From a virus: a DNA stretch of 42,666 bases. A program made the translations under genes and the position numbers. Below are positions 2,118 through 26,000 of this stretch, one piece after another; position 1 is the stretch's first letter; each line of letters begins with the position of its first letter. The DNA lies in the IMG/VR virus record IMGVR_UViG_3300034064_000054, positions 1-42,666 of that record. One strand, written 5' to 3'. A model generated the notes under the pieces. That model saw only the letters and a program-made list of their open reading frames with translations, was not told the DNA's origin and made no database searches.

Positions 2118-2379
2118 GACCGAGAAAGGCGCTTCGCTTAAGCGCTGGTTCCAAGAAGACTGGAAGGACGTCCGTACGGGTAAAGCCTGCGGGCGTCAGC
2201 CGGGTGAGAAGCGCGGCACACCTTACTGTAGACCTAGTAAGCGTATTTCTGATAAGACCCCCAAGACGTCGTCGGAGATGACTCCTACGGAGAAGAAGAC
2301 GCGTATCGCTCAGAAGAAGCGGTTGGGGCAGCCTCCCGGTGCGCCTAAGCGCGTACAGGCAGCGCGGAGACAGAAATGA
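2104..2379 (+). CDS. Small basic conserved viral protein (GTG start)
   Basis: I choose GTG 2104 as start because the protein then begins VAVRKTEKGASLKRWFQEDW, the conserved beginning of this family, and because an AAAGG-type ribosome site precedes it; the longer open frame upstream lies inside the preceding gene. The 91-residue protein contains LKRWFQEDW, a TGKACGR segment, YCRPSKR and a lysine-rich tail. The arrangement resembles a small viral domain found in phages and large DNA viruses (SLKRW...W...G.CGR...CRPSKR...TP). I do not know its function. The stop overlaps the next ATG by four bases, so coupling to the adaptor gene is likely. Confidence 0.7.
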   Translation: MAVRKTEKGASLKRWFQEDWKDVRTGKACGRQPGEKRGTPYCRPSKRISDKTPKTSSEMTPTEKKTRIAQKKRLGQPPGAPKRVQAARRQK

Positions 2380-3122
2380 CCACTAGCGGCACATCCACGT
2401 TTAACCTCAACCTTAACGAGCTCTTCGAAGAGGCGTTCGAGCGTTGTGGCGTGGAGATGCGCACCGGTTACGACTTCCGCACGGCGCGGCGCAGCCTGAA
2501 TATCCTGACCATCGAGTGGGCGAACAAGGGTATAAACCTGTGGACAGTTGAGCAGGGCTCCATCCCCATGGTGCAGGGGCAGATCACCTATGAGCTGCCT
2601 GTGGATACCATTGACCTCATCGAGCACGTCATCCGTACGCAGTCGGGGCAGCAGGGTCAGACCGACATCAACATCAACCGCATCTCTGTGGATACTTACT
2701 CCACCATCCCGAACAAGAACGCGCAGGGTCGGCCTATTCAGGTGTGGATCAACCGCCAGTCAGGCGCGACCTATCCGCCGGGTGGACGCCCAGCAGGGAC
2801 AAACACCACCACAGGCGTGGACCATCCGCAGATCAATGTCTGGCCGGCTCCGGAGCAGAGCAACTACTACACGTTCGTCTACTGGCGGCTGCGGCGCATC
2901 CAAGATGCTGGCACCAACGGCCTCGTGACGCAGGACATCCCCTTCCGCTTCATCCCGTGCCTTGTGGCCGGTCTGGCGTATCACCTGTCGCTGAAACTGC
3001 CCGGTGCGCTGGAGCGGTCTATGGGCCTCAAGGCAATGTATGACGAGCTGTGGCTGGAAGCATCGGACGAGGACCGCGAGAAGGCCCCGCTACGTATCGC
3101 CCCACGCCAGTATTTCCGATAG
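2376..3122 (+). CDS. Tail adaptor / tail tubular protein A-like (T7 gp11 or P22 gp4 type)
   Basis: The 248-residue protein fits the short-tailed-phage adaptor group. It has an N-terminal helix with NLNELFEEAFERCGVE, then a helical RTARRSLNILTIEWANKGINLW segment, a beta section (YELPVDTIDLIEHV), a WPAPE turn and a C-terminal helical part with YHLSLKLP. In T7 and P22 the corresponding proteins sit under the portal and connect it to the tail nozzle. This role is by family resemblance; the fold cannot be checked here. The ATG at 2376 overlaps the preceding stop. A homing endonuclease gene starts four bases after its stop. A second adaptor-type gene is at 4389-5069, so the neck may have two adaptor layers. 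Confidence 0.7.
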   Translation: MTTSGTSTFNLNLNELFEEAFERCGVEMRTGYDFRTARRSLNILTIEWANKGINLWTVEQGSIPMVQGQITYELPVDTIDLIEHVIRTQSGQQGQTDININRISVDTYSTIPNKNAQGRPIQVWINRQSGATYPPGGRPAGTNTTTGVDHPQINVWPAPEQSNYYTFVYWRLRRIQDAGTNGLVTQDIPFRFIPCLVAGLAYHLSLKLPGALERSMGLKAMYDELWLEASDEDREKAPLRIAPRQYFR

Positions 3123-3125
3123 GTT

Positions 3126-3617
3126 ATGCCCCATGGCCCATTGTTCTTGGCATGGGCTGCGGGGTTTTTCGACGGCGAAGGCTCTGTTTTTGTTGAGATA
3201 TCCAAGAACAAAAACACTCGGCGTAGAGTACGTAACTTGCTAACCGCGTCCGTTACTCAGACGTCTACACCGTGCCTGAATCTGTTCAAGGAGCATTTTG
3301 GCGGTAATATAACGCCGATAACCAAGAGTCGGCGGCACCACATGAACAACTCTGTATGCTACGTGTGGCGCGTACGCAGTAAAGATGCGATAGCGTTCCT
3401 TGAAGCCATAGCCCCTTATGTGGTAGTGAAGAAGGAGCAAGTAGAGTTAGCGCTCCAGTACCCACTTACGTCGGCAGACGGTAGGAAATATGCGGGTCCC
3501 TATAACCCCCTACCTGACGAGGTTCATAACCGTCGTATGGAGATAGGGCAAAAACTCAGAGACATCCGGGCGTCGATGAAGACGGCTTCGGCAGTGAAGG
3601 AGGATATAAGTGCCTAA
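3126..3617 (+). CDS. Free-standing LAGLIDADG-type homing endonuclease
   Basis: The 163-residue protein carries a single LAGLIDADG-like motif near its N-terminus (LAWAAGFFDGEGSVFV, residues 8-23, with acidic D16/E18 in place for metal binding). Basic beta-strand and helix sequence follows, including FLEAIAPYVVVKKEQVELAL, typical of small monomeric-repeat or dimeric endonucleases. Such enzymes cut a specific site in an allele lacking the gene and spread by repair. It lies between two structural genes and ends inside the next one (overlap 3610-3617). The ribosome site for that gene (AAGGAGG, about 3597-3603) lies in its own last codons. No group I intron or intein boundary is evident, so I treat it as free-standing. 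The start has a poor ribosome site, and a later start is possible. Confidence 0.85.
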   Translation: MPHGPLFLAWAAGFFDGEGSVFVEISKNKNTRRRVRNLLTASVTQTSTPCLNLFKEHFGGNITPITKSRRHHMNNSVCYVWRVRSKDAIAFLEAIAPYVVVKKEQVELALQYPLTSADGRKYAGPYNPLPDEVHNRRMEIGQKLRDIRASMKTASAVKEDISA

Positions 3618-4050
3618 TCGCTTTGCCTCCGGCAAAAGGGCAATCTCACAGTGCGACCGCTGTGGGTTTCGCTACAAGCTCAAAGAGCTCAAGCAGCTCG
3701 TTATCAAGACGAAGAACGTCAACATCTTGGTGTGCCCCACGTGCTGGGAGCCGGATCAGCCTCAGTTGCAACTGGGCATGTACCCCGTGGATGACCCGCA
3801 AGCGCTGCGCAATCCACGCCCGGATACGACATATTACCAAGCCGGTCTCACAGGCTTGCGGGAAGAAACGCAGGGCGAAGTGCCTAACGACAACGTGCTG
3901 GCATCTGGCACGCCATCGGGCGGTAGTCGCGTCATCGAATGGGGCTGGGCCCCGGTCGGACTTAATAACCCCTTGGGTTTATCTGGCCTGCAAAATGCGC
4001 TATTGATGCAGGGTCAGGTAGGCACTGTGACGGTAACGACGGAGAACTAA
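3610..4050 (+). CDS. Zinc-ribbon virion-region protein
   Basis: The start is GTG 3610, seven bases after a strong AAGGAGG site. The 146-residue protein has CxxC pairs at C15/C18 and C42/C45, forming a four-cysteine zinc-ribbon-like knuckle (CDRCGF and CPTCW). A Pro-rich segment follows with RNPRPDTTYY, and then a Gly/Asn-rich beta-type tail. Proteins of this shape, with N-terminal zinc ribbon and a LRNPRPD-like segment, occur beside neck and tail genes in many phages, but I know of no tested role. It probably forms part of the virion or its assembly machinery. Its initiation inside the homing endonuclease gene shows that the endonuclease insertion kept or rebuilt the ribosome site. Confidence 0.75.
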   Translation: MPNRFASGKRAISQCDRCGFRYKLKELKQLVIKTKNVNILVCPTCWEPDQPQLQLGMYPVDDPQALRNPRPDTTYYQAGLTGLREETQGEVPNDNVLASGTPSGGSRVIEWGWAPVGLNNPLGLSGLQNALLMQGQVGTVTVTTEN

Positions 4051-4051
4051 G

Positions 4052-4240
4052 ATGGCCAAGGACGACATCAAGCAGGACAAGGCGATGGTTAAGAAGGCCG
4101 TGCATAAGCACGAGGCCGCCATGCACAAAGGTATGCCGAAGACCAAGCTCGCCAAGGGCGGCAAGACCAACATGCAGATGAAGACCCTTGGTCGGAATCT
4201 TGCTAAGATCGCCAACCAGAAAAAGTCCTCGCGGGGGTAA
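4052..4240 (+). CDS. Small basic conserved phage protein with KLAKGGKTN motif
   Basis: This 62-residue, lysine-rich protein begins MAKDDIKQDKAMVKKAVHKH. It continues with a His/Lys helix and then KLAKGGKTNMQMKTLGRN and a basic C-terminus. LAKGG is another instance of the AxGG motif seen in the neighbouring small proteins. The KTN...GRN block is familiar from many environmental phage genomes, always without a function. It starts one base after the preceding stop. A DNA-condensing or minor virion role would suit the composition but is not demonstrated. Confidence 0.75.
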   Translation: MAKDDIKQDKAMVKKAVHKHEAAMHKGMPKTKLAKGGKTNMQMKTLGRNLAKIANQKKSSRG

Positions 4241-4245
4241 AAAAC

Positions 4246-4389
4246 ATGTCTAACGGCACTCCGAAGAAGGTCGCTATCGGCGCAAACAATAGCGGCTATC
4301 CGAACAACATCGCCAACACTCAGACCCAGAAGACGCGCGGCACAGGCGCGGCCACCAAGGGTACCGGGCACAGCAAGAAGATGGGCTGA
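4246..4389 (+). CDS. Very small conserved phage protein ending in KTRGTGAATKG...HSKKMG
   Basis: This 47-residue ORF starts at ATG 4246, five bases after the previous stop, and its TGA (4387-4389) overlaps the next ATG. It is rich in Gly, Asn, Thr and Lys. The C-terminal half contains QKTRGTGAATKGTGHSKKMG, a tail I recognise as recurring in small phage proteins of this genomic position. It has no predicted membrane span or catalytic motif. Tight packing between two coding genes and the conserved tail are the evidence that it is real. Function unknown. Confidence 0.7.
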   Translation: MSNGTPKKVAIGANNSGYPNNIANTQTQKTRGTGAATKGTGHSKKMG

Positions 4390-5069
4390 TGAACTACGCT
4401 CAGCTGTTCGAGACGATCAAGGGATACGTTGAAAACGACTTCCCCAACACCTCGTGGACCGACTCCACGGGCTCGGGAACGGTTACCCTGACGTCCACCG
4501 AACAGATCGACACGTTCATTGTCAACGCCGAAGAACGTATCTTCAACGCGGTTCAGCTGCTGGACCTGCGCAAGAACGTCACCGGCAACTGCACACTGGG
4601 TAACAAGTACCTCACAGTGCCCTCGGATTGGCTGGCCAACTTCTCCATGGCCGTCATCGACGGGGACGGGAACTATGAGTACCTGCTGAACAAGGATGTG
4701 AACTACATCCGGGGAGCCTACCCCAACCCCAACACGCAGGGGCTGCCGACCCACTACGCCTACTTTGACGAGAACTCGTACATCCTTGGCCCCACGCCCG
4801 ACGCTAACTACGCTGTAGAGCTGCACTATTTCTACTACCCGCCGTCCATCACGACTGCGGGTACCTCGTGGCTCGGAGACAACTTCGAAAGCGTGCTGCT
4901 CTATGGCGCTCTGCTGGAGGCGTATACCTTCATGAAGGGTGAGGCCGACGTGCTAGCTGGGTACCAGAAGCGTTACGACGAAGCGCTTGCTCTGCTGAAG
5001 CAGCTGAGCGAAGGTAAAAACCGTGAAGACATGTATCGCAGCGGCCAAGTCCGCTACCCGGTGAGGTAA
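4389..5069 (+). CDS. Phage adaptor protein (SU10-type neck adaptor family)
   Basis: The 226-residue protein begins MNYAQLFETIKGYVENDFPNT. It has a helical segment EQIDTFIVNAEERIFNAVQL, a strand block containing YLTVPSDWLANFSMAVID, LPTHYAYFDENSYILGPTPD, VELHYFYYPPSIT and SVLLYGALLEAYTFMKGE, and a C-terminal amphipathic helix. This order (N-terminal helix, LPxDW, a Y....L.L.PxPDxxYxVELxYY strand pair, then LLYGALLEA) is the pattern of the podovirus adaptor family typified by phage SU10. The protein would form a ring between portal and nozzle. It shares general organisation with the gene at 2376-3122 but not obvious sequence identity. Confidence 0.75.
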   Translation: MNYAQLFETIKGYVENDFPNTSWTDSTGSGTVTLTSTEQIDTFIVNAEERIFNAVQLLDLRKNVTGNCTLGNKYLTVPSDWLANFSMAVIDGDGNYEYLLNKDVNYIRGAYPNPNTQGLPTHYAYFDENSYILGPTPDANYAVELHYFYYPPSITTAGTSWLGDNFESVLLYGALLEAYTFMKGEADVLAGYQKRYDEALALLKQLSEGKNREDMYRSGQVRYPVR

Positions 5070-7114: not shown

Positions 7115-7267
7115 ATGCTCGCTGGTTATAAGACCTACATCACCGCTGGTGTGGCTATCGTCGTAGCGGTAGCTGAGTTCCTGACCGGTGACGCTTCGCT
7201 GGCTGATACCTCACAGCTGGTGTTCACCGCCCTTCTGGCTGCTTTTGTGCGTAACGGTATTAAGTAA
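7115..7267 (+). CDS. Small holin-like membrane protein
   Basis: This 50-residue ORF follows the endolysin by 11 bases, with a good ribosome site (TAAGGAGA) before ATG 7115, and its TAA overlaps the next ATG. Two hydrophobic segments are visible, about 8-23 (YITAGVAIVVAVAEFL) and 34-46 (LVFTALLAAFV), separated by a short polar turn and followed by a basic end (RNGIK). Size, topology and position after the endolysin fit a small class II-like holin. Two other membrane proteins compete for the holin role in this cassette. Confidence 0.75.
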   Translation: MLAGYKTYITAGVAIVVAVAEFLTGDASLADTSQLVFTALLAAFVRNGIK

Positions 7268-7821
7268 TGGCTCTCGTCCTTGCTGACCGCGTAAAGGACA
7301 CCACGACCTCTACGGGTACGGGTACAATTACGCTTGCCAACTCTCCACCGGCAGGCTTTCAGTCTTTTACTGCGGTCGGCAACGGAAACACGACCTATTA
7401 CACCATCGCTGGCGGCTCCCAGTGGGAGGTCGGCATTGGCACCTATACGTCCTCCGGCACGACCCTATCGCGCGATACGGTGTTGTCGTCGAGCAACGGT
7501 GGGTCTTTGGTAGACTTTGCGGCGGGGACCAAGGACGTCTTCGTCACATACCCGGCAGAGGAGTCGGTGTACCAAGACGGAGCAGTTATCAAGGCCGGGA
7601 CGGCTATCCTTCCCGTCGCCAACGGCGGCACCGGCGCTGCAACGCTGACGGCTAACAACGTCCTGCTCGGTAACGGCACATCGGCGGTGCAGGTAGTCGC
7701 TCCCGGTACCAATGGTAACGTTCTAACCAGCAACGGCACAACGTGGACGAGCGCGGCTCCGGCTGCCAGCGGCGCAACTAAGGGGCAGGCAATCGCCTTT
7801 TCCCTCATTTTCGGCTTGTGA
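7267..7821 (+). CDS. Tail fibre / virion protein with GGTG repeats
   Basis: The 184-residue protein begins MALVLADRVKDTTTSTGTGT and has FQSFTAVGNGNTTYYTIAGG, WEVGIGTYTSSGTTLSRDTV and VFVTYPAEESV. These form a common phage fibre/baseplate-end domain, after which comes a VANGGTGAATLTANNVLLGN-type collagen-like/beta-helical repeat and a short C-terminus. The GGTGA and LLGNGTSAVQ segments are typical of tail fibres. It starts inside the preceding stop (TAATG) and opens the host-contact block. Confidence 0.8.
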   Translation: MALVLADRVKDTTTSTGTGTITLANSPPAGFQSFTAVGNGNTTYYTIAGGSQWEVGIGTYTSSGTTLSRDTVLSSSNGGSLVDFAAGTKDVFVTYPAEESVYQDGAVIKAGTAILPVANGGTGAATLTANNVLLGNGTSAVQVVAPGTNGNVLTSNGTTWTSAAPAASGATKGQAIAFSLIFGL

Positions 7822-7832
7822 GGAACTAGGTC

Positions 7833-8207
7833 ATGGCCAACCCGAATATTGTCAACGTCACATCCATTCTCGGCGACAACAGCAGCGTATCGCTGACCTC
7901 GACCTCCGCGACGCAGATCGTCAGCAACGCTGCATCAAGTGGTAAGGTGCTGAAAATCAACGCGATTCTTGTATCGAACGTCGATGGCACCAACGCCGCT
8001 GACATCACGATCAACAAGTACAGCGCGGCTGCACTGGGTGGCACGGCTTTCGCGATTGCGTCAACGATCTCAGTGCCGGCTGACGCCACGCTGATCGTCG
8101 TCGATAAGACCACGTCGATCTACCTCAAGGAAAACGAGAGCATCGGCGCTATCGCTGGCACGGCGAACGATCTTGTTGTAACTTGCTCGTGGGAAGACAT
8201 TTCGTAA
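7833..8207 (+). CDS. Conserved virion structural protein
   Basis: The 124-residue protein is beta-rich: VTSILGDNSSVSLTSTSATQ, AASSGKVLKINAILVSNVDG, ADITINKYSAAALGG, STISVPADATLIVVDKTTSIYL and a C-terminal LVVTCSWEDIS. This is a known type of small structural protein in cyanophages, pelagiphages and environmental podoviruses, with no mechanistic role assigned. Its position between fibre genes suggests a tail or fibre component. The ribosome site is GAGGAA before ATG 7833. Confidence 0.75.
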   Translation: MANPNIVNVTSILGDNSSVSLTSTSATQIVSNAASSGKVLKINAILVSNVDGTNAADITINKYSAAALGGTAFAIASTISVPADATLIVVDKTTSIYLKENESIGAIAGTANDLVVTCSWEDIS

Positions 8208-8219
8208 CAGGAGGCGTTA

Positions 8220-9536
8220 GTGCCCCTTAGCAAGTTTCCGGGCGGCATTCTCGGCGTCGGGTTCAACCCGCTGCAGGCTCCGAACGCGCCAACCATCGGC
8301 ACGGCGACGGGTGGTAATGCGTCCGCGTCTGTGGCCTTTACTGCGCCGGCTAACGTCGGCGGATCGGCTATCACCAGCTACGCCGTGCAGAGCACTCCGG
8401 GGAACGTCGGCGCGTCTGGCGCGTCATCGCCGATTACCGTCTCCGGCCTGACCAACGGCACCGCCTACACGTTCCGCGTCACCGCGCTGAACAGCTACGG
8501 GCCTTCGCCTGCGAGTGGGGCGAGTAATAGCGCGACGCCTGCTTTGCCGCAGTATATTGCTGTGGGGTCCACCAACACGCCCTTCGTCACAGCCTACCCT
8601 TGGTCTGGTTCTGGCTTCGGCACGAAGTTCACCAATCCTGCTACGCTGCCTACGAGTGCCGGGCGCAACGTAGCGTTCACCCCCGCAGCCAACGCCATTG
8701 CCGTAGCACACGAATCTACTCCATTCGTCACAGCTTACCCTTGGAGTGTCTCTGGCTTCGGGACGAAGTTTGCCGATCCTGCCACGCTGCCTACGGACGG
8801 GTGCCGAGGCGTAGCGTTCAGTCCGTCTGGCGACGCCATCGCCGTGGCGCATTATGTTACGCCCTTCGTCACCGCCTACCCATGGTCTGTCTCTGGCTTC
8901 GGCACGAAATTCGCCAATCCTGCTACGACCCCTACGGGTACTGGTAACGGCGTAGCCTTTAGCCCGTCTGGTAATGCCATCGCTGTAGCGCACGACACAT
9001 CGCCCCGCGTCACAGCCTACCCTTGGTCTGGTTCTGGCTTCGGCACGAAGTTCACCAATCCTGCTACGCTGCCGACTGGTAATTGTAATACGGTAGCGTT
9101 TAGCCCGTCTGGTAATGCCATCGCTGTAGCGCACGACATATCGCCCTTCGTCACCGCCTATGCATGGTCTGGCTCTGGCTTTGGAACGAAATTCGCCAAT
9201 CCTGCTACGCTGCCTGCGGGCCTTGGCTTTGGCGTAGCATTTAGCCCCGCTGGCGATGCCATCGCGGTAGCGCACTCGGGGTCTCCAAATATAACAGCCT
9301 ATCCTTGGTCTGGCTCAGGCTTTGGTACTAAGTTCGCCGATCCTGCTACCCTGCCTACGGCTACTGGCATCCGTGTGGCGTTCAGTTATGCTGGGGATGC
9401 TATCGCTGTAGCACAAGACGGCTCTCCCGGTGTAACAGCCTATCCTTGGTCTGGCTCTGGCTTTGGAACGAAATTCGCCAATCCTGCTACGCTGCCTGCG
9501 GGCCTTGGCAACGGCGTCGCCTTCGGTGCCGGCTAA
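8220..9536 (+). CDS. Tail adhesin A: fibronectin type III domain plus seven propeller-like repeats
   Basis: The start is GTG 8220 after AGGAGG. Residues about 18-107 form a fibronectin type III-like domain (APNAPTIGTATGG..., ITSYAVQSTP, SGLTNGTAYTFRVTALNSYG). Then come exactly seven 47-residue repeats with the core TAYPWSGSGFGTKF, NPATLPT, VAFSPSGNAI and AVAH. The last repeat stops after GVAFG, lacking its outer strand, which is how circular beta-propellers close (the first repeat supplies the strand). I infer a seven-bladed beta-propeller carried on an FN3 stalk, probably a receptor-binding or fibre-tip protein. The residues after AVAH and after LPT vary while the core is fixed, as expected of ligand-facing loops. 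Paralogues are at 9582-10655 and 11372-12514. Confidence 0.8.
   Translation: MPLSKFPGGILGVGFNPLQAPNAPTIGTATGGNASASVAFTAPANVGGSAITSYAVQSTPGNVGASGASSPITVSGLTNGTAYTFRVTALNSYGPSPASGASNSATPALPQYIAVGSTNTPFVTAYPWSGSGFGTKFTNPATLPTSAGRNVAFTPAANAIAVAHESTPFVTAYPWSVSGFGTKFADPATLPTDGCRGVAFSPSGDAIAVAHYVTPFVTAYPWSVSGFGTKFANPATTPTGTGNGVAFSPSGNAIAVAHDTSPRVTAYPWSGSGFGTKFTNPATLPTGNCNTVAFSPSGNAIAVAHDISPFVTAYAWSGSGFGTKFANPATLPAGLGFGVAFSPAGDAIAVAHSGSPNITAYPWSGSGFGTKFADPATLPTATGIRVAFSYAGDAIAVAQDGSPGVTAYPWSGSGFGTKFANPATLPAGLGNGVAFGAG
8559..9530 (+). repeat. Seven tandem ~141-bp coding repeats (propeller blades, gene A)
   Basis: Seven direct repeats of 47 codons encode the blade core. Copies differ at many third positions, but two blades share an identical 63-bp block (9165-9227 and 9447-9509), and a 40-bp block is shared by the junctions of blades 3/4 and 4/5. 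Confidence 0.85.
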
Positions 9537-9546
9537 GGAGACCCCT

Positions 9547-9582
9547 ATGACCACGCGCTCCTTCCACACGGGGAACCTCTGA
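9547..9582 (+). CDS. Possible 11-codon leader ORF before adhesin B
   Basis: A strong ribosome site (TAAGGAGA) precedes ATG 9547, which opens an 11-residue ORF (MTTRSFHTGNL) whose TGA overlaps the ATG of the next gene (TGATG, 9580-9584). The next gene has no separate good ribosome site. This suggests that ribosomes enter on the mini-ORF and restart on adhesin B. It may also be a relic of a deleted gene. The coding claim rests only on position and ribosome site. Confidence 0.4.
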   Translation: MTTRSFHTGNL

Positions 9583-10655
9583 TGCCGAATTACAGCGGGG
9601 TCTGGTCGCTCGTGCAGCAGCTTCAGGCTGTGTCGGCGGGCCTGTGGCAGTTGTCGCCGCAGTATTTCGTTGCTGTAGCGCACAACGCTTCACCCTTCGT
9701 CACCGCCTATCCGTGGTCTGGCTCCGGCTTTGGTACAAAGTTTGCCGACCCGGCGACGCTGCCGGCTGGGATTGGTCGTAGTATAGCATTCAGCCCATCC
9801 GGCAACGCAATCGCCATAGCACACGGTAACACGCCTTATGTAACGGCGTATCCGTGGACCCGTTCTGGCTTTGGCACGAAGTTTGCTAATCCGGGTACGG
9901 TTCCTACCGGAGATGGTCGTGGCGTAGCATTTAGTCCTACTGGCAACGCTATCGTCATAGCACACAGTACCACGCCATTTATCTCACTTTACCCTTGGAG
10001 CGACTCAGGCTTTGGCAGTAAACGTGCCAATCCCGCTACGTTGCCTACAGGCACTGGAAACGGCGTAACGTTCAGCCCTACTGGTGATAACATCGCTTTG
10101 GCACACAGCACATCTCCCTTTGTCACCGTTTATGCATGGAGCGGCACCACATTCGGAACGAAGCGTAACAACCCAGCTACATTGCCTGCAGACAATGGCT
10201 TTAGCGTAGCTTTTAGCCCATCCGGCGACGCTATTGCTGTAGCACATGAGATCTCACCCTTCATCAGCGCTTATCCGTGGAGTGGCACTAGCTTCGGCAC
10301 GAAGTTTACTAACCCCGCAACGCTACCAACAGGTGAGGGTTTCGGCGTGGCGTTTTCACCCTCTGGTAACGCTATCGCCGTTGCACACGGCAGTTCACCG
10401 TTCATCACCGCCTACCCGTGGTCAGGTTCCGGCTTTGGGACGAAGTTCGCCGATCCGGCTACGTTGCCTACAGGCACTGGAAACGGCGTAACGTTCAGCC
10501 CTACTGGTGATGCTATCGTCGTGGCGCACAACGCTTCACCCTTCGTCACCGCCTATCCGTGGTCTGGCTCCGGCTTTGGTACAAAGTTTGCCGACCCGGC
10601 GACGCTGCCGGCTGGCACCATTGGCTACGGCGTTGCCTTCGGGCTGATTTCATAA
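9582..10655 (+). CDS. Tail adhesin B: seven propeller-like repeats with short N-terminal anchor
   Basis: The 357-residue protein has a short amphipathic N-terminus (YSGVWSLVQQLQAVSAGLWQL, residues about 4-24) and then exactly seven 47-residue repeats of the adhesin A type. Blades 3 and 4 are the most divergent (ISLYPWSDSGFGSKRANP and VTVYAWSGTTFGTKRNNP). The last blade ends at GVAFG, again suggesting circular closure of a seven-bladed propeller. It lacks the FN3 domain, so it may attach to the virion through its N-terminal helix or assemble on another fibre protein. Blade 1 and blade 7 share a perfect 92-bp DNA match. Role as a host-binding protein is inferred from location among fibre genes and from the variable loops. 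Confidence 0.8.
   Translation: MPNYSGVWSLVQQLQAVSAGLWQLSPQYFVAVAHNASPFVTAYPWSGSGFGTKFADPATLPAGIGRSIAFSPSGNAIAIAHGNTPYVTAYPWTRSGFGTKFANPGTVPTGDGRGVAFSPTGNAIVIAHSTTPFISLYPWSDSGFGSKRANPATLPTGTGNGVTFSPTGDNIALAHSTSPFVTVYAWSGTTFGTKRNNPATLPADNGFSVAFSPSGDAIAVAHEISPFISAYPWSGTSFGTKFTNPATLPTGEGFGVAFSPSGNAIAVAHGSSPFITAYPWSGSGFGTKFADPATLPTGTGNGVTFSPTGDAIVVAHNASPFVTAYPWSGSGFGTKFADPATLPAGTIGYGVAFGLIS
9672..10646 (+). repeat. Seven tandem ~141-bp coding repeats (propeller blades, gene B)
   Basis: There are seven direct repeats. Exact shared blocks are 92 bp between blades 1 and 7 (9678-9769 and 10524-10615) and 54 bp between blades 3 and 6 (10035-10088 and 10458-10511), while other blades differ at many synonymous sites. 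Confidence 0.85.
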
Positions 10656-10667
10656 GGAGCACAACAC

Positions 10668-10925
10668 ATGATCGACCTCAACGAAGAACGCACCAAGATC
10701 CTCACTGACGCCTACGAGCACCGTCAGCGCGAGGTTATGCACCACCAGATCAACATCGACAACTACCAGTTGGCGCTGCAAGAGATTGCTGAGAAGCACC
10801 CCGACTGCGAGATTATGGCCGAGTTCGCCAATCGCCTGCGCGAACTACTCGGTAGCTCGATCATTGAGCAGGCGAAGGAAGTCATCATGCGCGACGTGAT
10901 GGCCAAGCAACTGGAGACTAACTAA
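10668..10925 (+). CDS. Small helical protein between fibre genes, unknown
   Basis: The 85-residue protein is charged and almost entirely helical (MIDLNEERTKILTDAYEHRQ, HHQINIDNYQLALQEIAEKH, C-terminal IIEQAKEVIMRDVMAKQLE). Similar small proteins sit between fibre genes in many phages, perhaps helping fibre folding, but I know of no proof. It has a good ribosome site (AAGGAGC) and its TAA overlaps the next ATG, so it is coupled to the tail assembly chaperone. Confidence 0.7.
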   Translation: MIDLNEERTKILTDAYEHRQREVMHHQINIDNYQLALQEIAEKHPDCEIMAEFANRLRELLGSSIIEQAKEVIMRDVMAKQLETN

Positions 10926-11365
10926 TGTTCTACTATTTAAATCCCCCCGGCGGTTCGGCAGTGTACCCCTACACCCTGACTGATCTTCGTCTGGCTAACC
11001 CCGGCGTGAAGTTTCCCGTAGACATCACCGACGCCATCGCGGCTGAATATCACTGCTTCCCGGTGCAGCCGACTGAGCCGAGTATCGCTCCCGTTGGTAA
11101 GAAGCAGGTACGCGACCTACCGGAAAGCGTGGACGGTATGTTTTTTGAGCGCTGGAAGTTAGTGGACCTGACGACTGAAGAGACAGACGCACAGTGGGCT
11201 ACTGTCCGCGCAGAGCGTAATACGAAGCTGGCCGCGTGTGATTGGACACAACTTGCTGATGCCCCAGCGGACGACCTTCAGTGGGCCGTTTACCGTCAAG
11301 CCCTGCGCGACCTGCCGCAGACACAGACCGACCCGTTTAACATCGTCTGGCCACCTGCGGGGTAA
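10925..11365 (+). CDS. Tail assembly chaperone-like protein (Phage_tail_APC type)
   Basis: The 146-residue protein ends in the signature of phage tail/fibre assembly chaperones: RAERNTKLAACDWTQLADAP, WAVYRQALRDLPQ and DPFNIVWPPAG. The N-terminal half (YYLNPPGGSAVYPYTLTDLR) is a small beta domain often seen fused in front of it. The family helps fibres or tail tube proteins fold or attach, and its genes normally neighbour the fibre they serve. Here it lies between adhesins B and C, so one or all of the three propeller proteins could be its clients. Confidence 0.8.
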   Translation: MFYYLNPPGGSAVYPYTLTDLRLANPGVKFPVDITDAIAAEYHCFPVQPTEPSIAPVGKKQVRDLPESVDGMFFERWKLVDLTTEETDAQWATVRAERNTKLAACDWTQLADAPADDLQWAVYRQALRDLPQTQTDPFNIVWPPAG

Positions 11366-11371
11366 TTTTTA

Positions 11372-12514
11372 ATGAGTAACCGTTGGCCCGGCGGCCTGAT
11401 CCGCAAAACCCCTGTAACGCCGGCTGGGCCATACCAGAACGGTGCGGCTCCGGGCGTGTGGACGCTTGCCGAGGCGGCTTTCTGGACGAAGCAGGGGCTG
11501 TGGCCGATTGCGGGGAATGCGCGACTTGAATACCTCGCCGTGGCGCACAGCACGACACCTTTCATCTCGGCCTATCCGTGGAGCGGCAGCGGCTTCGGCA
11601 CTAAGTTTGCCAATCCAGCTACTCTGCCTACAGGCGACGGTGTAGGCGTGGCGTTCAGCCCATCAGGCAATGCTATCGCTGTAGCGCACGGCATAACACC
11701 CTTCATCACGGCCTACCCGTGGAGCGGCTCTGGCTTTGGCGCAAAGTTTGCTAACCCGGGTACGCTGCCCCCTAGCACTGGTAGAGGCGTAGCGTTCAGC
11801 CCAGCAGGCGATGCCATCGCTGTAGCGCATACCACATCGCCCCGTATCTCCGCCTACCCTTGGAGCGGCAGCGGGTTCGGGACTAAGTTTGCTGATCCAG
11901 CGACGCTGCCCACGGGCGATGGCGAAGGCGTAGCTTTCAGCCCAGCAGGCAACGCCATCGCAGTAGCGCACGGCTTCTCCCCTCGTATCACTGCATACCC
12001 GTGGAGCGGTTCAGGCTTTGGTACAAAGTTTGCCAACCCCGCGACACTGCCTACGAATACCGGTCGGGGCGTAGCTTTCAGCCCAGCAGGCGATGCCATC
12101 GCCGTAGCGCATGCTTCCTCACCATTTGTCACTGCCTACCCTTGGAGCGGGTCTGGCTTTGGCGCTAAGTTTGCCAATCCCGCTACGCTGCCTCCGAACG
12201 GCGGTAGAGGTGTAGCCTTCAGTCCCGCAGGCGATGCCATCGCCGTGGCGCACGACACAACACCCTTCATCACCGCCTACCCTTGGAGCGGTTCAGGCTT
12301 TGGCACGAAGTTTGCTGATCCAGCGACGCTGCCGACTGGAGGTGGCTACGGTGTAGCGTTCAGCCCCGCAGGCGATGCCATCGCTGTGGCGTATTTCACA
12401 ACGCCTTTCATCACTGCCTATCCTTGGAGTGGCAGCGGTTTTGGCACGAAGTTCACCAATCCAGCCACGCTGCCGGCAGGAGAGGGCAGGGGCGTAGCCT
12501 TCGGCGCAGCATAA
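11372..12514 (+). CDS. Tail adhesin C: phage N-terminal anchor plus seven propeller-like repeats
   Basis: The 380-residue protein starts with an anchor block (SNRWPGGLIRKTPVTPAGPY, GVWTLAEAAFWTKQGLWP, residues 2-47) that is a widespread virion-attachment segment of phage fibre proteins. Exactly seven 47-residue repeats follow, the most uniform of the three paralogues (TAYPWSGSGFGTKF in nearly every blade). The final blade ends at GVAFG, as in A and B. Ser codons in the blade core are mostly AGC here but TCT in adhesin A, so the copies are not recent whole-gene duplicates. I infer a virion-anchored seven-bladed propeller with receptor or glycan binding. Confidence 0.8.
   Translation: MSNRWPGGLIRKTPVTPAGPYQNGAAPGVWTLAEAAFWTKQGLWPIAGNARLEYLAVAHSTTPFISAYPWSGSGFGTKFANPATLPTGDGVGVAFSPSGNAIAVAHGITPFITAYPWSGSGFGAKFANPGTLPPSTGRGVAFSPAGDAIAVAHTTSPRISAYPWSGSGFGTKFADPATLPTGDGEGVAFSPAGNAIAVAHGFSPRITAYPWSGSGFGTKFANPATLPTNTGRGVAFSPAGDAIAVAHASSPFVTAYPWSGSGFGAKFANPATLPPNGGRGVAFSPAGDAIAVAHDTTPFITAYPWSGSGFGTKFADPATLPTGGGYGVAFSPAGDAIAVAYFTTPFITAYPWSGSGFGTKFTNPATLPAGEGRGVAFGAA
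11537..12505 (+). repeat. Seven tandem ~141-bp coding repeats (propeller blades, gene C)
   Basis: Seven direct repeats of 47 codons encode the blade core seen in adhesins A and B. Variation is concentrated after AVAH and after the LP[TPA] dipeptide. Confidence 0.85.
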
Positions 12515-12613: not shown

Positions 12614-13441
12614 ATGTTTGGTTTTACCCCCTTCGCCACAGCACCGTTCGCGGCCCTTGGTACTGCTAGCGTAGAAGTCCAGCTTACTGGCGTCCAAGCC
12701 GAAGCTCTGCTGGGTACGGCTGCCGCAGGCGTTTTTATCTCTGTCGACGTAACCGGCGTCGAGGGGCAGTCTGCGCTTGGCAGCATAGCGCTTCAGACCA
12801 ACAACAACATAACCGTAACCGGGCTCGTAGGTTCGGTCTTCCAAGGCACCACCGGTACCAGCGGTGACGCGGTTATCATCGAGGACGGCGTAGCCGGATT
12901 TGGTCAAGTCGGTATCGCTGACGCCCGCGCCACTTTCAGCGTAAACGTCACCGGGGTCGAGGCAAACGCGCTTCTTGGTACGGTGCAGGCTACTGCACCT
13001 ATAAATGTCCCTGTCACTGGCGTAGCTGCTGACGCGCTCCTTGGTACTGTTGCTATCGCTAGCGGCGCAGTCGTTACGCTTACAGGGCTCGCAGCTGCGG
13101 GGCAGCTAGGCTCACCGACCATAAATGCAGCTACAGCTGTTACCATTACCGGCGTAAGCGCCAATGCTCAGGTGAGTAGCGTCACCGTAGGTGTCTTCAA
13201 GCGCGTCTTCGTAACTGGTGTCTCTGCTACCGGCGAAGTCGGTACCGTTGCCGTACGGGGTGCAACTGGTGTATACCCAACGGGTGTACAAGCCATCGGT
13301 AGCATAACGAACGTAAATATCTGGGGGGTCATCAACGACAACCAGACGCCGAATTGGCAGCCTGTGGACGACGCGCAGTCCAGTACGTGGACATTGGTGA
13401 ACGATGGTAATACGGTAGTTTGGGTAGAGATACCGACGTAA
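12614..13441 (+). CDS. Repeat-containing virion structural protein (VTGVxA repeats)
   Basis: The 275-residue protein is made of about ten short beta repeats of the type V[TD][VG]TGVxAxxxLGTV, separated by small variable linkers. It ends with NWQPVDDAQSSTWTLVND, a tail motif typical of this family. Such [VT]TGV repeat proteins are frequent structural components in pelagiphages and cyanophages, perhaps fibre or capsid-surface proteins, and their function is unproven. No cysteine and no membrane span are seen. It is preceded by a perfect ribosome site. Confidence 0.75.
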   Translation: MFGFTPFATAPFAALGTASVEVQLTGVQAEALLGTAAAGVFISVDVTGVEGQSALGSIALQTNNNITVTGLVGSVFQGTTGTSGDAVIIEDGVAGFGQVGIADARATFSVNVTGVEANALLGTVQATAPINVPVTGVAADALLGTVAIASGAVVTLTGLAAAGQLGSPTINAATAVTITGVSANAQVSSVTVGVFKRVFVTGVSATGEVGTVAVRGATGVYPTGVQAIGSITNVNIWGVINDNQTPNWQPVDDAQSSTWTLVNDGNTVVWVEIPT

Positions 13442-13450
13442 GGGACGAAA

Positions 13451-14227
13451 ATGCCGAGCACTTACAGCAACCTCAAAATCCAGCTGATGGCCACGGGTGA
13501 GAACAACACCACGTGGGGTAACGTCACGAACGACAACCTTGGTGTCGCCATCGAGGAGGCTATTGCTGGCTCTGCGGATGTCACCTTCTCCAGCGGCGAT
13601 GTCACGCTGACGCTCACCAACACCAACGCTACCCAGACGGCGCGTAACATGCGCTTGCGCTGCACCGGTACAACGGGCGGAGCCCGTAACCTTATCGTGC
13701 CTGCCATCGAGAAGGCGTACATCATCCAGAACGACTGCGCGGACGCCATCACGGTCAAGAACTCCTCCGGCACCGGTATCGCCGTTCCGGCTGGCAAGAC
13801 CATGTGGGTCTACAACAACGCCACTAACGTGGTGGATGCGGTTACGCACCTGACGTCGCTTACGGTAGCTAGTTCGATCACAAACCAAGCACTCACCAAC
13901 CCCACGGTGACCAACTACATCGAGACGCTTTATGCGCCTGCAGCTGGTTCCTCCTTCACGGTTGCGCTATCTGACGGCACGGTGCAGCGGTTCACAACCA
14001 ACGCCAACACCACCATCACGCTGCCTGCCTCGGTCGCAGGTAAGTCGTTCGTCATCATAGTGCAGTACGGCGGCGCTCACACCCTGACATGGGCCGGCGG
14101 CTCCACGTTGAAGTGGAACGCTGGAGTCGCCCCGATTGCTACAAGCGTCAACGGTAAGATTGACATCTTCTCCTTCTTCCAAGACGGAACCAACACCTAC
14201 GGGTCTACCTTCGGGCAGAACTTCTGA
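13451..14227 (+). CDS. Conserved virion structural protein, tail/fibre type
   Basis: The 258-residue protein begins MPSTYSNLKIQLMATGENNT, with TWGNVTNDNLGVAIEEAIAG, a RNLIVPAIEKAYIIQNDCAD block and GIAVPAGKTMWVYNNATNVV. These are the standard parts of a common phage fibre-associated structural family. The C-terminal half is a beta domain ending in FFQDGTNTYGSTFGQNF. It overlaps the next gene (TGATG), implying coupled expression with a second fibre-like protein. Confidence 0.8.
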   Translation: MPSTYSNLKIQLMATGENNTTWGNVTNDNLGVAIEEAIAGSADVTFSSGDVTLTLTNTNATQTARNMRLRCTGTTGGARNLIVPAIEKAYIIQNDCADAITVKNSSGTGIAVPAGKTMWVYNNATNVVDAVTHLTSLTVASSITNQALTNPTVTNYIETLYAPAAGSSFTVALSDGTVQRFTTNANTTITLPASVAGKSFVIIVQYGGAHTLTWAGGSTLKWNAGVAPIATSVNGKIDIFSFFQDGTNTYGSTFGQNF

Positions 14228-14898
14228 TGTTCTCTGCCGCGTCTAAAAGCGCCAGTGGGGGCAAGCTAATTACCGAGACGTTCACGTCTAATACGACGTG
14301 GGTGGCACCTGCGGGTGTAAGCGTACTGCGCACCATGAGTGGTTTTGGTGGGGCAGCTACTCCCGATACTCCTGTTAGGGCTGGTGTAACGTTTTCGTCA
14401 GTAGGTTCGGCAGCTTCTACTTTTCCTGAGCCTCCATTTGCGCAGTGGAGCTACCTATACTCTACCATGACAGGAGCCGCCGCCACTGTTGCTGGGGGTA
14501 GCGGTGTTCGGTTAGTTTTGTTGCCTAAACTACTTGTAACTGTGGGTCTTGGAGACACATGGTCGAACAACCTTACCTCAGAAAATATATGGATTAACGG
14601 TACTTATAACAACGTGTACGCAACTGGAGGTGCTTTAACCAGCGGTAATATTACATATCCCACTGCCTCTGCCGCGTGGGTATTAGAAGTAGATACCTAC
14701 TCGTTTGGTTCCAACGGGCCTGCTACTACCGCAGTAGGTAAAACTTTCCCCGGCGGTACGCTTGGGGGCAGTGTGCCACTTCGCACCGCTGTTGCTCCTG
14801 TGACAACAACCTTTACCGGTGTAGCCGTCACCCCCGGTGTGTCCTACTCTTTCGTCATCCCCTCGGGTGGCTCACTCACGATCACTTACATAGGGTAA
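14227..14898 (+). CDS. Probable tail fibre-type protein, beta-rich, unrecognised
   Basis: The 223-residue protein contains TETFTSNTTWVAPAGVSVLR, the start of a common glycine-rich fibre domain, then Gly/Ser/Thr/Val-rich beta sequence ending in GVSYSFVIPSGGSLTITYIG. The first block and the C-terminal VTPGVSYSFVI recall fibre-tip domains in many phages, in which the middle is hypervariable. I cannot assign a specific fold. Its position between structural genes and its TGATG coupling support a virion role. Confidence 0.65.
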   Translation: MFSAASKSASGGKLITETFTSNTTWVAPAGVSVLRTMSGFGGAATPDTPVRAGVTFSSVGSAASTFPEPPFAQWSYLYSTMTGAAATVAGGSGVRLVLLPKLLVTVGLGDTWSNNLTSENIWINGTYNNVYATGGALTSGNITYPTASAAWVLEVDTYSFGSNGPATTAVGKTFPGGTLGGSVPLRTAVAPVTTTFTGVAVTPGVSYSFVIPSGGSLTITYIG

Positions 14899-21638: not shown

Positions 21639-23009
21639 ATGCCCAAACCGTTTACCCTCCAAGCCCCGGAAGATATCGCCAAGGAATATGGCGGTAACAA
21701 ACAGAAGATCGCGCAAGCGATGCAGATGGGCGTCGTCGACCCCACTGCCGGTACCCTTGCGGGTATGTTCATTGACCGTATGCGCAGCGCGCAGATGCAG
21801 GAAGGCGCTCAGCAGCCGTCCGTAGCGCAGCAGGTATTTGCCCCCCCAGCTCCGCCTGCTCCGCCAATGGGTGGCCCCCCGATGGGTGCTCCTCCTGCTC
21901 CACCGATGGGTGGTATGCCGCCCGGTGGGCCGCCGATGGGCGCTCCGCCTGCTCCTCCGATGGGTGGTATGCCGCCCGGTGCTCCTCCGATGGGCATGGC
22001 TGATGGCGGCTTGGCTGCGCTCCCCGTTCCGGAAAACATGTTCGATGAGCCCATGGACGGCGAGTATGCCGGCGGCGGCATCGTGGCTTTTGCTGATGCA
22101 GGGCCGGTGGGCTACATGCAAGAAGCTCCCGAAGACGAAGAACTGGAAGCCGTTGGATCGAGGGGTCGCTACGGGTTTGCCCCTACGTTTGAAGGGAATA
22201 TGGGTCTTATCGAAAAGTACGCTCCACAGCAGAGTAAGTATGGCGATAAGCTGACTTCCTTCTACGAAGCTGAGATGAGCCCCGAAGCCCAGAAAAAGCG
22301 CCGCGACGAGGATAAATATTTTGCGCTTGCGCAGCTGGGTGCCACCATGGCGGGCACTCCGGGTAGCTTGCTACAGGCATTTGGTGCGGGTGTCGGTAAA
22401 GCTCTCCCCGGTCTTCAGGAAAGCGCCAAGGCACGCCGCGCCGAACAGCGAGACGCAATCAAGACGCTGGCTGCTCGGGAAGACATGACGAACAAGCAGG
22501 CTACCGACGCGTTCAGGCTCGCAGGCGATTTGCAGAAGGCATACGGCGGCTTCATGGATACCGAAGCGCAGCGTAAGCTTACGAAGGAAATGAACGAGGC
22601 GGATAATGAAGTACGGATAGCGGCCCAGCTGCTGGCTAATAAAGGCCAGAAAGATGTGGCTGTTATCAACAAAAACGCGCAACTGGATTACTTTACCAAG
22701 CAAGAGGCTAATCTTGTAAAGGACGTTAAGGCTAAGGCGGTGGCTGCACTGCCGGCGCTGCGTTCGACACTGGATAACCCGGTCGGCTTGGCGCATAATG
22801 CGTTTAGGAAAGCGCAAGCTTCTGGGAATAAGGCCGAGGCTGCGCTGGCAGCCGACGCAATCAGCGAAGCCGAACGTGCGTTTGTAGCTTCGCAGGTTGC
22901 CCTTGTCAGTGGAGGTACGCCACCGAGTCCGGGGGCTGAAGTTGGCTCTGTACCCGGTGGTAAGATCGTTGTACAAAACGGCAAGCGCGTCTTCGTTCCG
23001 GGGGGCTAA
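21639..23009 (+). CDS. Internal virion protein with Pro-Met-Gly repeat and AxGG motifs
   Basis: The 456-residue protein has an N-terminal helical part (MPKPFTLQAPEDIAKEYGGN, AGMFIDRMRSAQMQ) and then a low-complexity Pro/Met/Gly region (about 68-120, PPAPPMGGMPPG in several copies). Next come MADGGLAAL and EYAGGGIVAFADAG, which are clear AxGG/GIVAFADxG motifs of environmental phage virion proteins. The C-terminal half is Ala/Lys/Glu-rich helix, ending in GGKIVVQNGKRVFVPGG. ATG 21639 has an AAGGAGG site, and the TAA overlaps the ATG of the giant gene, so both are coupled. A function in DNA ejection or virion interior is inferred from location and composition. Confidence 0.7.
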   Translation: MPKPFTLQAPEDIAKEYGGNKQKIAQAMQMGVVDPTAGTLAGMFIDRMRSAQMQEGAQQPSVAQQVFAPPAPPAPPMGGPPMGAPPAPPMGGMPPGGPPMGAPPAPPMGGMPPGAPPMGMADGGLAALPVPENMFDEPMDGEYAGGGIVAFADAGPVGYMQEAPEDEELEAVGSRGRYGFAPTFEGNMGLIEKYAPQQSKYGDKLTSFYEAEMSPEAQKKRRDEDKYFALAQLGATMAGTPGSLLQAFGAGVGKALPGLQESAKARRAEQRDAIKTLAAREDMTNKQATDAFRLAGDLQKAYGGFMDTEAQRKLTKEMNEADNEVRIAAQLLANKGQKDVAVINKNAQLDYFTKQEANLVKDVKAKAVAALPALRSTLDNPVGLAHNAFRKAQASGNKAEAALAADAISEAERAFVASQVALVSGGTPPSPGAEVGSVPGGKIVVQNGKRVFVPGG

Positions 23010-26000
23010 TGCCTTTTGAAGTTTATGGCCCCGACGGTAAGTCGGTTACGTTCCCGGACGGCACGGACGACGCAACCGTTGTACGTGTGATGGGTGGTAT
23101 CTACCCATCGGCTACTCCTGCTGCCGCAGCGCCTACGGCGAAAACTCCGTCCGTTGATGACACCAACATATTCCGAGATGTACCCGGAGCTCTGGTGAGC
23201 GGCCTTGGCCAGCTGGCTAAGTTCCCCGCAAACGTGTACGGGTTAACCACGGGCGACTTCGACACGATGGCTTCGCGCGCTGCGCAGGGTCTCACTGATA
23301 TTGGTGAAGACATCAAAAGCGAAGGGCTGCGCGAACGCGAGCGACTGGCGCAAGAACGTATTGCTGCGCAAGAAGGGTTTTTGGGAGAAGCAGGTCAGAC
23401 AATTAAGGAGTACGCGACCGACCCGCGCCTCCTCATGTCGGGTGCATTGTCCTCGCTGCCCAGCATGGTGGGTGGCCTCGGTGTCGGTGCGCTTGCTGGT
23501 AAGGGCGTAAGCAAACTTGCAGGCCGTAAAGCTGCGGAAGAAGTTGCAAAAGCAAAGGGTAGGAAAGCCGCTGTCGTAGGTGGTATTGGGGCAGCAGCTG
23601 CTGAGCAGGGAGCCAGTGTTGGCGAAGACACGTACAGCCGAGTTACAGCGCTCCCAGAGGAAATCCTTACTCAGTCTCCAGATTACCAGTCGCTGCTTGA
23701 AGCAGGGACATCCCCGGAAGATGCGCGGCAAGAGCTCGCGCTGAGCGCGGCTAGGAAAGCTACGGCGGCGGCTACCGCGCTATCGGCAGTTTCCGCAGGT
23801 CTGTTGCCGAGAGCCATTGAAAAAACTGTGTTTGGCGATGCAGTAACTGATGGCATCATCAAGCGGTCTCTAAAGTCGTTCGCGGGTGAGGCTACCCAAG
23901 AAGGTATCGAAGAAGGCGGCGGGCAGCTTGCGCAAAACCTTGCGGTGTCTCAAGCAGATGTAACTGCGGACCCGTTCAAGGGTGTCGGTGCCGCCACAGC
24001 ACAGGGTGCTATCTTGGGTGGAGCTTTTGGTGCTCCTGCTGGCGCGTTTAGTGGTAGGGCACAAGCCGCCGCTCCCGGCCAAGAAGCACCTCCGGTCGCT
24101 CCGGAAGTTCAAGCTGAGTTCCGAAAGCTTGCTGCGCAGCAGGTCGCTGCTACCATGGCGGCGAACCCGAACATTAGCCAAGATGAAGCTACCACGGCAG
24201 TGGTTGCACGCGCAGACGTTATTCTGGAGCAGGCGAAGGCAAATGTCGAAGCGGCGCAAACGCAGGCGGAAACGGGAGCAGGACTGGATGGAGGAGCAAG
24301 TGGACCTAACGTGGCTGTCGCTGGAGCAGCTGGGCCAAGCGTTCCAGTTGCTGGCGCTCCCACGCCCACCGGACAAGCTGCCCAAACCGTTCCACAAGCT
24401 AAACCCGTCGGAGTGGCTAGCGTTGGAGAGCCTGTTGGTGGCCCTACTGGAGCAGAAGCAGGTGCAGACGGTACACTGACGCCTATTACCGGTAAGCAGG
24501 TCACAGCTACTATACCAACCATCGAGAAGGCGTTTGACGACAACGCCTTGGACTTTGAAGTTTATGGGGTCGAGAAGCTCAACGCCGAGCAGAAAAAGCA
24601 GGCCGCGCGCATCGTCCTGCAAAGCCCCGAAGTTGCCCCATACGATGCTATCGTCTCTGTGCTTGACCGTGGCGTAAAGGCACGTGGTGAACAAGTTCCA
24701 TCGAAGACAACCATCGACATCAACGGTCAGAAGCGCACCATTGAGACCGCACCCACCCTCACTGGGTCACAGCAGCTTGCTGCTGAACTGGGAGTAACTG
24801 GAGAACGCTACCCTGCCTTGGAGCCGGCATACGTGCTACCCAAGGATAAGACCACCGAGAAGATGCGGGTTATTGCGCCGGTGGTTGCCGATATTTTCAC
24901 GCGGGTTACCGGGCTGGATACCTCCAAGCTTCCCGAAGGTGACACGAAGAAGGCGTATAACTCCTCCAATACGCGCATCCTCAACGCCGTGCTGCGCGGG
25001 GAAGCAGTCAACCCCGAGACCATCGTCCAAGAGCAGGTGGCTCAGTACAAGGTCCCGCTTGCCTCGCAAGCGGCTGCGCCTACACCTACACCTACCCCGA
25101 CCCAAACCGTTGAAGCCGAAGAAGACATCCTAGCCCCGGCACGGGGTGAGATGAAGCTGGCTGAGCGTAAAAATACAGTTCGCCCCCTTGTAAGTCTCTT
25201 CGCTGACGACGCTATCAAAGGTGTCAAAATCCCAACTGGGTTTGGCAGCGCAGACCTAGACGCCGTCAAGAAGCAGGCTACCAATCAGGTAGCTAATCAA
25301 CTGGCCAAGGGGCAAGATGTAGACGCCGCCGCAGTGGTTGATACCCTGCTACGGAACCGGGGCTTTGCTATCCCCGAACGCGCTACCGCTACCGCTACCG
25401 CTACCGCTGCTGCGCCTGAGCCTACGTCTGTGGCTGCGCCTGAGCCTACATCTGTGGCTGCGCCTACACCCGAACCGGAATACACCCCGCAGCAGATTGC
25501 GGAGCACCTTACATATTTCTCAGTGCCCGAAGCCCAGTCTCGTGGGTACGAGCCCAATACCGACCGATTTGGTATGTTCACTGAAGGCGCGCGTGACGTT
25601 GCCAATGGTGTTGAGCCTATCCCTGACCAGCAAATTCTCGAAGGGTTAGGGCAGGAAGCTCTCGACGCATACAAAGCTGGTATCCAGTGGGCGCAGGATA
25701 GCGTTGCTGCCGCACAGGCCGCGCCTGCTAAGGTCGCTCCTGTTTCTCCGGCTAAGAAGGCCAAGCAGGTCAAGGCGGTTATCAAACGCAAGCCGGGTAA
25801 GACCGTAGCTGAAAAAGTCCTTAACATGGCGCAGGCGGAAGTTGACGCCATGCCAAAGGAGGACATGGTCGGTCAGGTTACACCGTACACCCCTGAGTAT
25901 GAGACGATCCGCGCCAAGCCGGGAATTAATGCCACCCGCATGGCTAAGATGTTGGGTCCGCAGCTCTACGGCGACCCCACCAATATGGGTCAGGTCTGCA

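Follow-up and report, generated by a model that had tools for sequence, protein, structure and literature searches.

The question raised by this locus is what three neighboring genes, each carrying seven copies of one 47-residue unit, encode, and how their number is held while the units themselves change. The genes, here called A, B and C, lie within a 42,666-nucleotide (nt) stretch of DNA from an uncultured virus (IMG/VR record IMGVR_UViG_3300034064_000054), which was analyzed at its full length and is called the window below (Table 1). An initial annotation had described them as three paralogous tail adhesins, each predicted to form a seven-bladed propeller. The gene coordinates and unit counts were reproduced: in A, B and C alike, all six start-to-start spacings were exactly 47 residues (141 nt), and 18 in-register copies of 300 nt were found with identities of 62–100%, far above chance expectation. 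Gene A begins with a GTG start codon preceded by a clear, strong Shine-Dalgarno sequence. Every last unit, or blade, had been said to be truncated after GVAFG. This held for A and C, whose seventh blades terminate two residues past the motif, but not for B, where the last loop of the seventh blade is longer by one residue (GTIGYG) and the C-terminal end reads GVAFGLIS. The units are in a strand B-to-strand A register: strand B opens the first and strand A closes the last, so that the final strand would be able to close a ring against the first.

The blades of C (compared in an identical copy carried by the related locus L001) shared a mean of 35.4 of 45 residues (79%), which places C among the highly repetitive propellers, defined by a median blade identity >60% (Pereira & Lupas, 2022). 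At the nt level, blades were more alike within a ring (0.725 in A, 0.744 in C) than between genes (0.67–0.69). Gene B was the exception, as its within-array identity of 0.651 made its blades no more alike inside the ring than across rings.

The fold of C was modeled by AlphaFold2 with 100 aligned relatives. The mean predicted local distance difference test score (pLDDT) was 92, rising to ~98 over the ring (residues 51–380), and the N-terminal anchor was folded with low confidence. DSSP assigned three long strands and a short fourth to each blade, with the final strand at residues 372–379. The top match of the model by Foldseek and VIA-align was the designed seven-bladed WRAP-T propeller 7bid (Z 39.8 over all 286 residues, root-mean-square deviation 1.7), and further matches were the archaeal YVTN propeller 1l0q (Z 36.8) and the repetitive propeller 2ymu (Z 35.2). 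A PDB profile search agreed, with 2ymu as the closest solved relative by sequence profile (E 1.7e-32). C is thus predicted by modeling to be a closed ring of seven four-stranded blades, the seven-bladed beta-propeller that had been proposed. The WD40 Pfam model PF00400 scored below its cut-off of 27 for A (17.3 bits) and B (15.7 bits) and was not reported for C, so the propellers are WD40-like without being filed in the Pfam WD40 family.

The initial annotation had also argued for a strong constraint on copy number, which repeat numbers varying freely among homologs (5, 6, 9) would have contradicted. Querying IMG/VR with propellers in three scans returned several hundred matches (>400 matching stretches), and 215 sequences (loci plus the window) were analyzed. 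Relatives held one, two or three propeller genes, or a single chain of 14 or 21 blades, and the closest sibling phage, L003, lacked gene A as a whole unit; the fixed system of three propellers that had been envisaged is not supported. Removal of near-duplicates and of arrays cut by contig ends left 89 distinct complete arrays, of which 84 had 7, 14 or 21 units (arrays that had an insertion, or in which one unit went undetected, were counted as 7, 14 or 21). In multi-ring chains a linker was placed after each seventh unit. The model of a 14-unit relative showed two domains (residues 16–343 and 346–676), and a single 14-bladed ring was rejected in favor of two seven-bladed domains. Because tblastn scans with the propeller rank long, full-length arrays first, an ascertainment bias, a second census was selected through neighboring genes alone (the 85-residue open reading frame (ORF) and the chaperone of Table 1) and not through the repeats. 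Here, all 27 distinct complete arrays had seven units. On both censuses a freely varying repeat number was rejected. A five-unit gene in L026 was likewise rejected as a genuine five-blade ring: it is the seven-unit gene of L022 with two chimeric junctions, the two loci being 99% identical over 10.7 kb, and it appears to have been shortened by collapsed repeats in the assembly or by a recent deletion. As to the host, five genome-bin hits were distributed over unrelated phyla; phage contigs within the bins are the probable explanation.

The constancy of number was accompanied by fast divergence of the blades. On either side of the propellers L003, a sibling ~95% identical, mostly matches the window at 93–98%, and its B and C arrays are 65–79% identical. 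For window C (in its L001 copy) against L003, same-index blades were no closer than other blades (0.72 for both), nor were they at fourfold sites (0.46 against 0.48, with the anchor at 0.66). Eight phage pairs with both flanks ≥90% identical were then compared. In six of them the arrays were 0.69–0.84 identical, with same-index blades scarcely closer than other blades; one pair, L022/L042, kept its blade order with blade identities of 78 to 99%, and one other pair was identical. Blades 2, 3, 5 and 7 of L054 best matched blades 4, 5, 2 and 6 of L065, a phage 98% identical to it just upstream. Shifted or non-positional matches beside near-identical flanks indicate that genome divergence lags far behind the movement or replacement of blades, whose number stays fixed. 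The arrays are islands of divergence that had not been noticed before. The window also holds a second divergence island relative to L003, at 14227–14898 (41–55% nt identity, in surroundings of mostly 87–98%), where a 223-residue ORF without a family match possibly encodes another host-contact protein.

Such diversity could also have come from the exchange of whole arrays through conserved flanks, with the differences in blade order being old and a receptor-binding role unaffected. The abrupt identity steps at array borders, the lack of positional signal between the B and C arrays of L003 and those of the window, and the presence or absence of gene A as a unit all fit such exchange. Yet L054 and L065 have common blades at different positions, L022 and L042 keep blade order with identities that range widely, and identity within arrays (mean 73%) is higher than between most arrays. 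We regard this account as a serious possibility but, on the whole, a doubtful one; whole-array exchange between phages nevertheless probably contributes, and may even be the main route.

Change within the blade was concentrated at few sites. Entropy over the 47 unit positions was highest at 7, 38, 36 and 8. Among 32 non-overlapping recent blade pairs these four positions had 40 nonsynonymous to 3 synonymous changes and the remaining 43 positions 41 to 67 (Fisher p 1e-10, an indicative value, as the positions were picked by entropy from overlapping data). All 20 scored window blades differed at positions 7, 8, 36 and 38, and 641 four-residue combinations occurred among 814 blades. DSSP placed positions 7–8 in the loop that joins strand B to strand C, and 36–38 at the D-to-A entry, before or opening strand A. 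Given the antiparallel topology of a four-stranded blade, both groups should lie on the same side and adjoin on one face, around the channel opening.

A few hypervariable codons at fixed sites in a tail adhesin would also suit a diversity-generating retroelement. A scan for reverse transcriptase (RVT_1) across the window and 20 related records (up to 69 kb, many of which may be fragments) found none, and the codons at variable sites were not of the fixed-third-base type; this candidate was rejected and we consider it scarcely credible. The same pattern bears on an enzyme head, that is, a lactonase or a polysaccharide-degrading propeller. Seven-bladed lactonases are structural neighbors of C (6nau, Z 34.5), and other propellers found in the same genomic slot match SGL and Lactonase models. 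Set against this, the match of C to Pfam Lactonase PF10282 was insignificant (E 0.17, 11.5 bits against a cut-off of 21.7), all blades fit one consensus with no single blade holding a unique conserved site, and the would-be active-site face is the variable face. An enzymatic role appears very improbable.

Gene context points to the tail, in keeping with the adhesin role first suggested. A chitinase-type endolysin is followed by an ORF with a tail-fiber N-terminal domain and then by the propeller block, which encloses a tail-fiber assembly chaperone. In relatives L078 and L037 this N-terminal domain (71–75% identity) is joined to a propeller in a single ORF, and in many relatives the propeller shares an ORF with long N-terminal parts, some of which match tail-fiber families. 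The window thus has the tail-fiber gene block with fiber chaperone expected of a receptor-binding head; the joined tail-attachment domain is seen in relatives and, in the window, only by way of anchor motifs common to other heads. The N-terminal FN3 domain of A was confirmed. B and C share the anchor motif GVW[ST]L...GLW, the N-terminus of B being a shortened form of that of C, and the L003 paralogue matches both. With this common motif, the three independent mountings of the initial annotation reduce to two.

Other, more distant phages have different domains in the slot just ahead of the chaperone, namely Laminin_G_3, Lcl_C (a match just below the curated cut-off), PQQ_2, SGL/lactonase or LVIVD. 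Lectin heads and propellers of other lineages in one slot are the pattern of an exchangeable binding head. In L277, L281, L299 and similar loci (~3590–4500) this slot is occupied by an unnamed protein of ~300 residues with a repetitive C-terminus (...NCTGLSNFASIPSNFK) and no Pfam match. The propellers might instead decorate the tail or capsid, sticking loosely to surfaces, mucus or particles or shielding the tail, with no specific receptor-binding head. It is general knowledge that fn3, as in A, is also common in decorative phage proteins, and A, B and C of the window are not fused to a fiber shaft. But the same ring is fused to tail-fiber N-termini in relatives, the chaperone adjoins in most loci, lectin-type heads occupy the same slot, and amino-acid changes cluster at four positions that are predicted to share one face. 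Decoration is an unlikely explanation.

The exact sevens, the tail-fiber-slot position, the fusions to tail-fiber domains in relatives, the fast divergence of the arrays and the excess of amino-acid changes at four positions were all observed, and we think it likely that A, B and C encode receptor-binding heads whose diversity arises by recombination of blades, with the blade number strictly constrained to seven. Each head would consist of one closed seven-bladed beta-propeller, probably at the tip of the tail, to which its N-terminus (fn3 for A and the common anchor motif for B and C) would attach it. As a rigid scaffold, the ring would show ~28 variable residues (positions 7, 8, 36 and 38 in each of seven blades), all on one face, and this face, a mosaic of seven short variable patches, would bind a host-surface molecule. 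Thanks to the repeats, blades would recombine within and between arrays and the face would evolve at a much higher rate than other parts of the genome, with ring closure selecting against any number but seven per ring. More tentatively, at something just short of an even chance, this may amount to a repeat-based diversification that needs no enzyme of its own, in which recombination exchanges and re-amplifies blades, the closed fold itself “counts” to seven and weeds out miscounts, and binding specificity resides in four codons of each blade, giving a combinatorial adhesin akin to antigen variation.

Several points weigh against receptor-binding heads diversified in this way. Five of the 89 arrays deviate (8+7, 6+7, 7+6, 5+4 and 5 units), the selection test is partly circular, the single variable face is derived from strand topology and not from coordinates, and entire arrays could have been acquired from other phages instead of being shuffled in place. 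Virion presence, ligand binding and the recombination mechanism are what we infer from the observations above.

Highly repetitive WD40 beta-propellers are a recognised class. Beta-propellers are said to be continually amplified from single blades by a process that has no known counting system of its own, and recently amplified forms show many blade numbers, both larger and smaller (PMC9218822). The WRAP-type propellers (2ymu, and 7bid as the closest by fold) resemble the phage rings in having near-identical blades that are more alike inside a ring than across rings, and tandem rings occur in both. They differ in their variable blade numbers (PMC9218822), whereas the phage rings almost always have seven per ring and are phage tail proteins in conserved gene neighborhoods; the word “phage” is absent from PMC9218822. 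The nearest described phage protein is the “wD40 repeat protein” UOF80687.1 of podophage ctYwJ313 (MW202701), which belongs to the same family (69% identity) and has the same neighbors, a small ORF and then a tail assembly chaperone. It differs in being one gene with 14 blades (two rings), and its annotation is a name with no function proposed.

Propellers are known in the receptor-binding proteins of phi11 (five-bladed), PRD1 (P2) and possibly phiKZ gp131C (seven-bladed) (PMC4901313), so that, with a relative already named in GenBank, the system is not wholly undescribed. The propeller of Staphylococcus phage phi11 is also closed by a terminal strand, but it is five-bladed and one domain inside a large trimer, and near-identical repeats are not described for it (PMC4901313). 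In phiKZ gp131C (PDB 4GBF, as cited in PMC4901313) the propeller is seven-bladed and C-terminal in a phage tail protein, with a proposed, unconfirmed receptor-binding role; no repeat shuffling is described for it (PMC4901313), it was not among the fold matches listed, an absence that says nothing about relatedness. The predicted structure of Orf76 of Pseudomonas phage POR1 (A0A0N7GFD2), encoded ~5 kb from a putative tail collar fiber gene, matches the C model (TM 0.89 by target, 27% identity) but has degenerated repeats without near-identical blades, and an IMG/VR search with this distant protein found nothing. The nozzle propellers of SU10 and T7 are also seven-bladed and found in short-tailed phages, but they form a hexameric component of the tail-channel structure and are not tip adhesins (PMC9509320). 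Propellers also occur in extracellular contractile injection fibers (PMC12923769). A propeller adhesin with near-repeated, shuffling blades was not described anywhere in the literature searched, which was mostly without subscription papers.

Table 1. The propeller block of the window and the genes next to it.
Feature	Position	Strand	Basis and relatives
ORF, 184 residues, tail-fiber N-terminal domain	7267..7821	+	tblastn to annotated tail fibers: roseophages CRP-6, CRP-603, Azospirillum phage Cd
Small ORF, 124 residues, tail-fiber slot	7833..8207	+	Homologs in 45/215 loci, median 14 nt from array; usually adjoins propeller in relatives
Propeller gene A, 438 residues, fn3 and seven blades	8220..9536	+	Absent from sibling phage L003
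fn3 domain of A, residues 30–100	8307..8519	+	Pfam PF00041, E 3e-8
Blades of A, seven x 47 residues	8553..9533	+	Repeat spacing
Propeller gene B, 357 residues, short anchor (GVWSL...AGLW) and seven blades	9582..10655	+	
Blades of B, seven, one-residue insertion in seventh	9666..10652	+	
ORF, 85 residues, conserved downstream partner of propeller genes	10668..10925	+	Homologs in 155/215 loci, median 8 nt from nearest array
Tail-fiber assembly chaperone, Phage_tail_APC	10925..11365	+	Pfam PF16778 E 1.3e-20; PHROG tail fiber assembly E 5e-18; homologs in 171/215 loci
Propeller gene C, 380 residues, 53-residue anchor and seven blades	11372..12514	+	
Anchor of C (WPGGLIRKTP...GVWTLAEAAFWTKQGLWP)	11372..11530	+	Also heads a concanavalin A-like lectin protein of phage DSL-LC04 (51% identity, E 1e-5)
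Blades of C, seven, predicted closed ring	11531..12511	+	AlphaFold2 pLDDT ~98, residues 51–380

The 85-residue ORF had no match to any named family; its product is probably helical and likely a dedicated partner or chaperone of the propellers. Downstream of C, a 275-residue ORF (12614–13441) has its own imperfect (V/I)TGV... repeats and is conserved near propellers in 37 loci. SU10-adaptor-type proteins and kinship with podophage ctYwJ313 point to a short tail for the window phage; the two SU10-adaptor-like ORFs (2376–3122 and 4389–5069, within 2376–5069) have a LAGLIDADG-type endonuclease ORF (3126–3617) between them. A single ORF of 2751 residues spans 23009–31264.

The feature is real and widespread, and its evolutionary behavior is worth following up. 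It amounts to a natural experiment: the blades turn over rapidly and their number stays at seven, so that counting becomes visible as selection acting on the closed ring. It also brings to light a large, so far unexamined class of candidate phage host-binding heads with their variable residues mapped, which makes host recognition by these uncultured phages testable. Protein engineers would gain a naturally diversified, symmetric scaffold for binding, if the proposed binding holds. For the phages themselves, the finding points to the re-tooling of host recognition through blade reshuffling.

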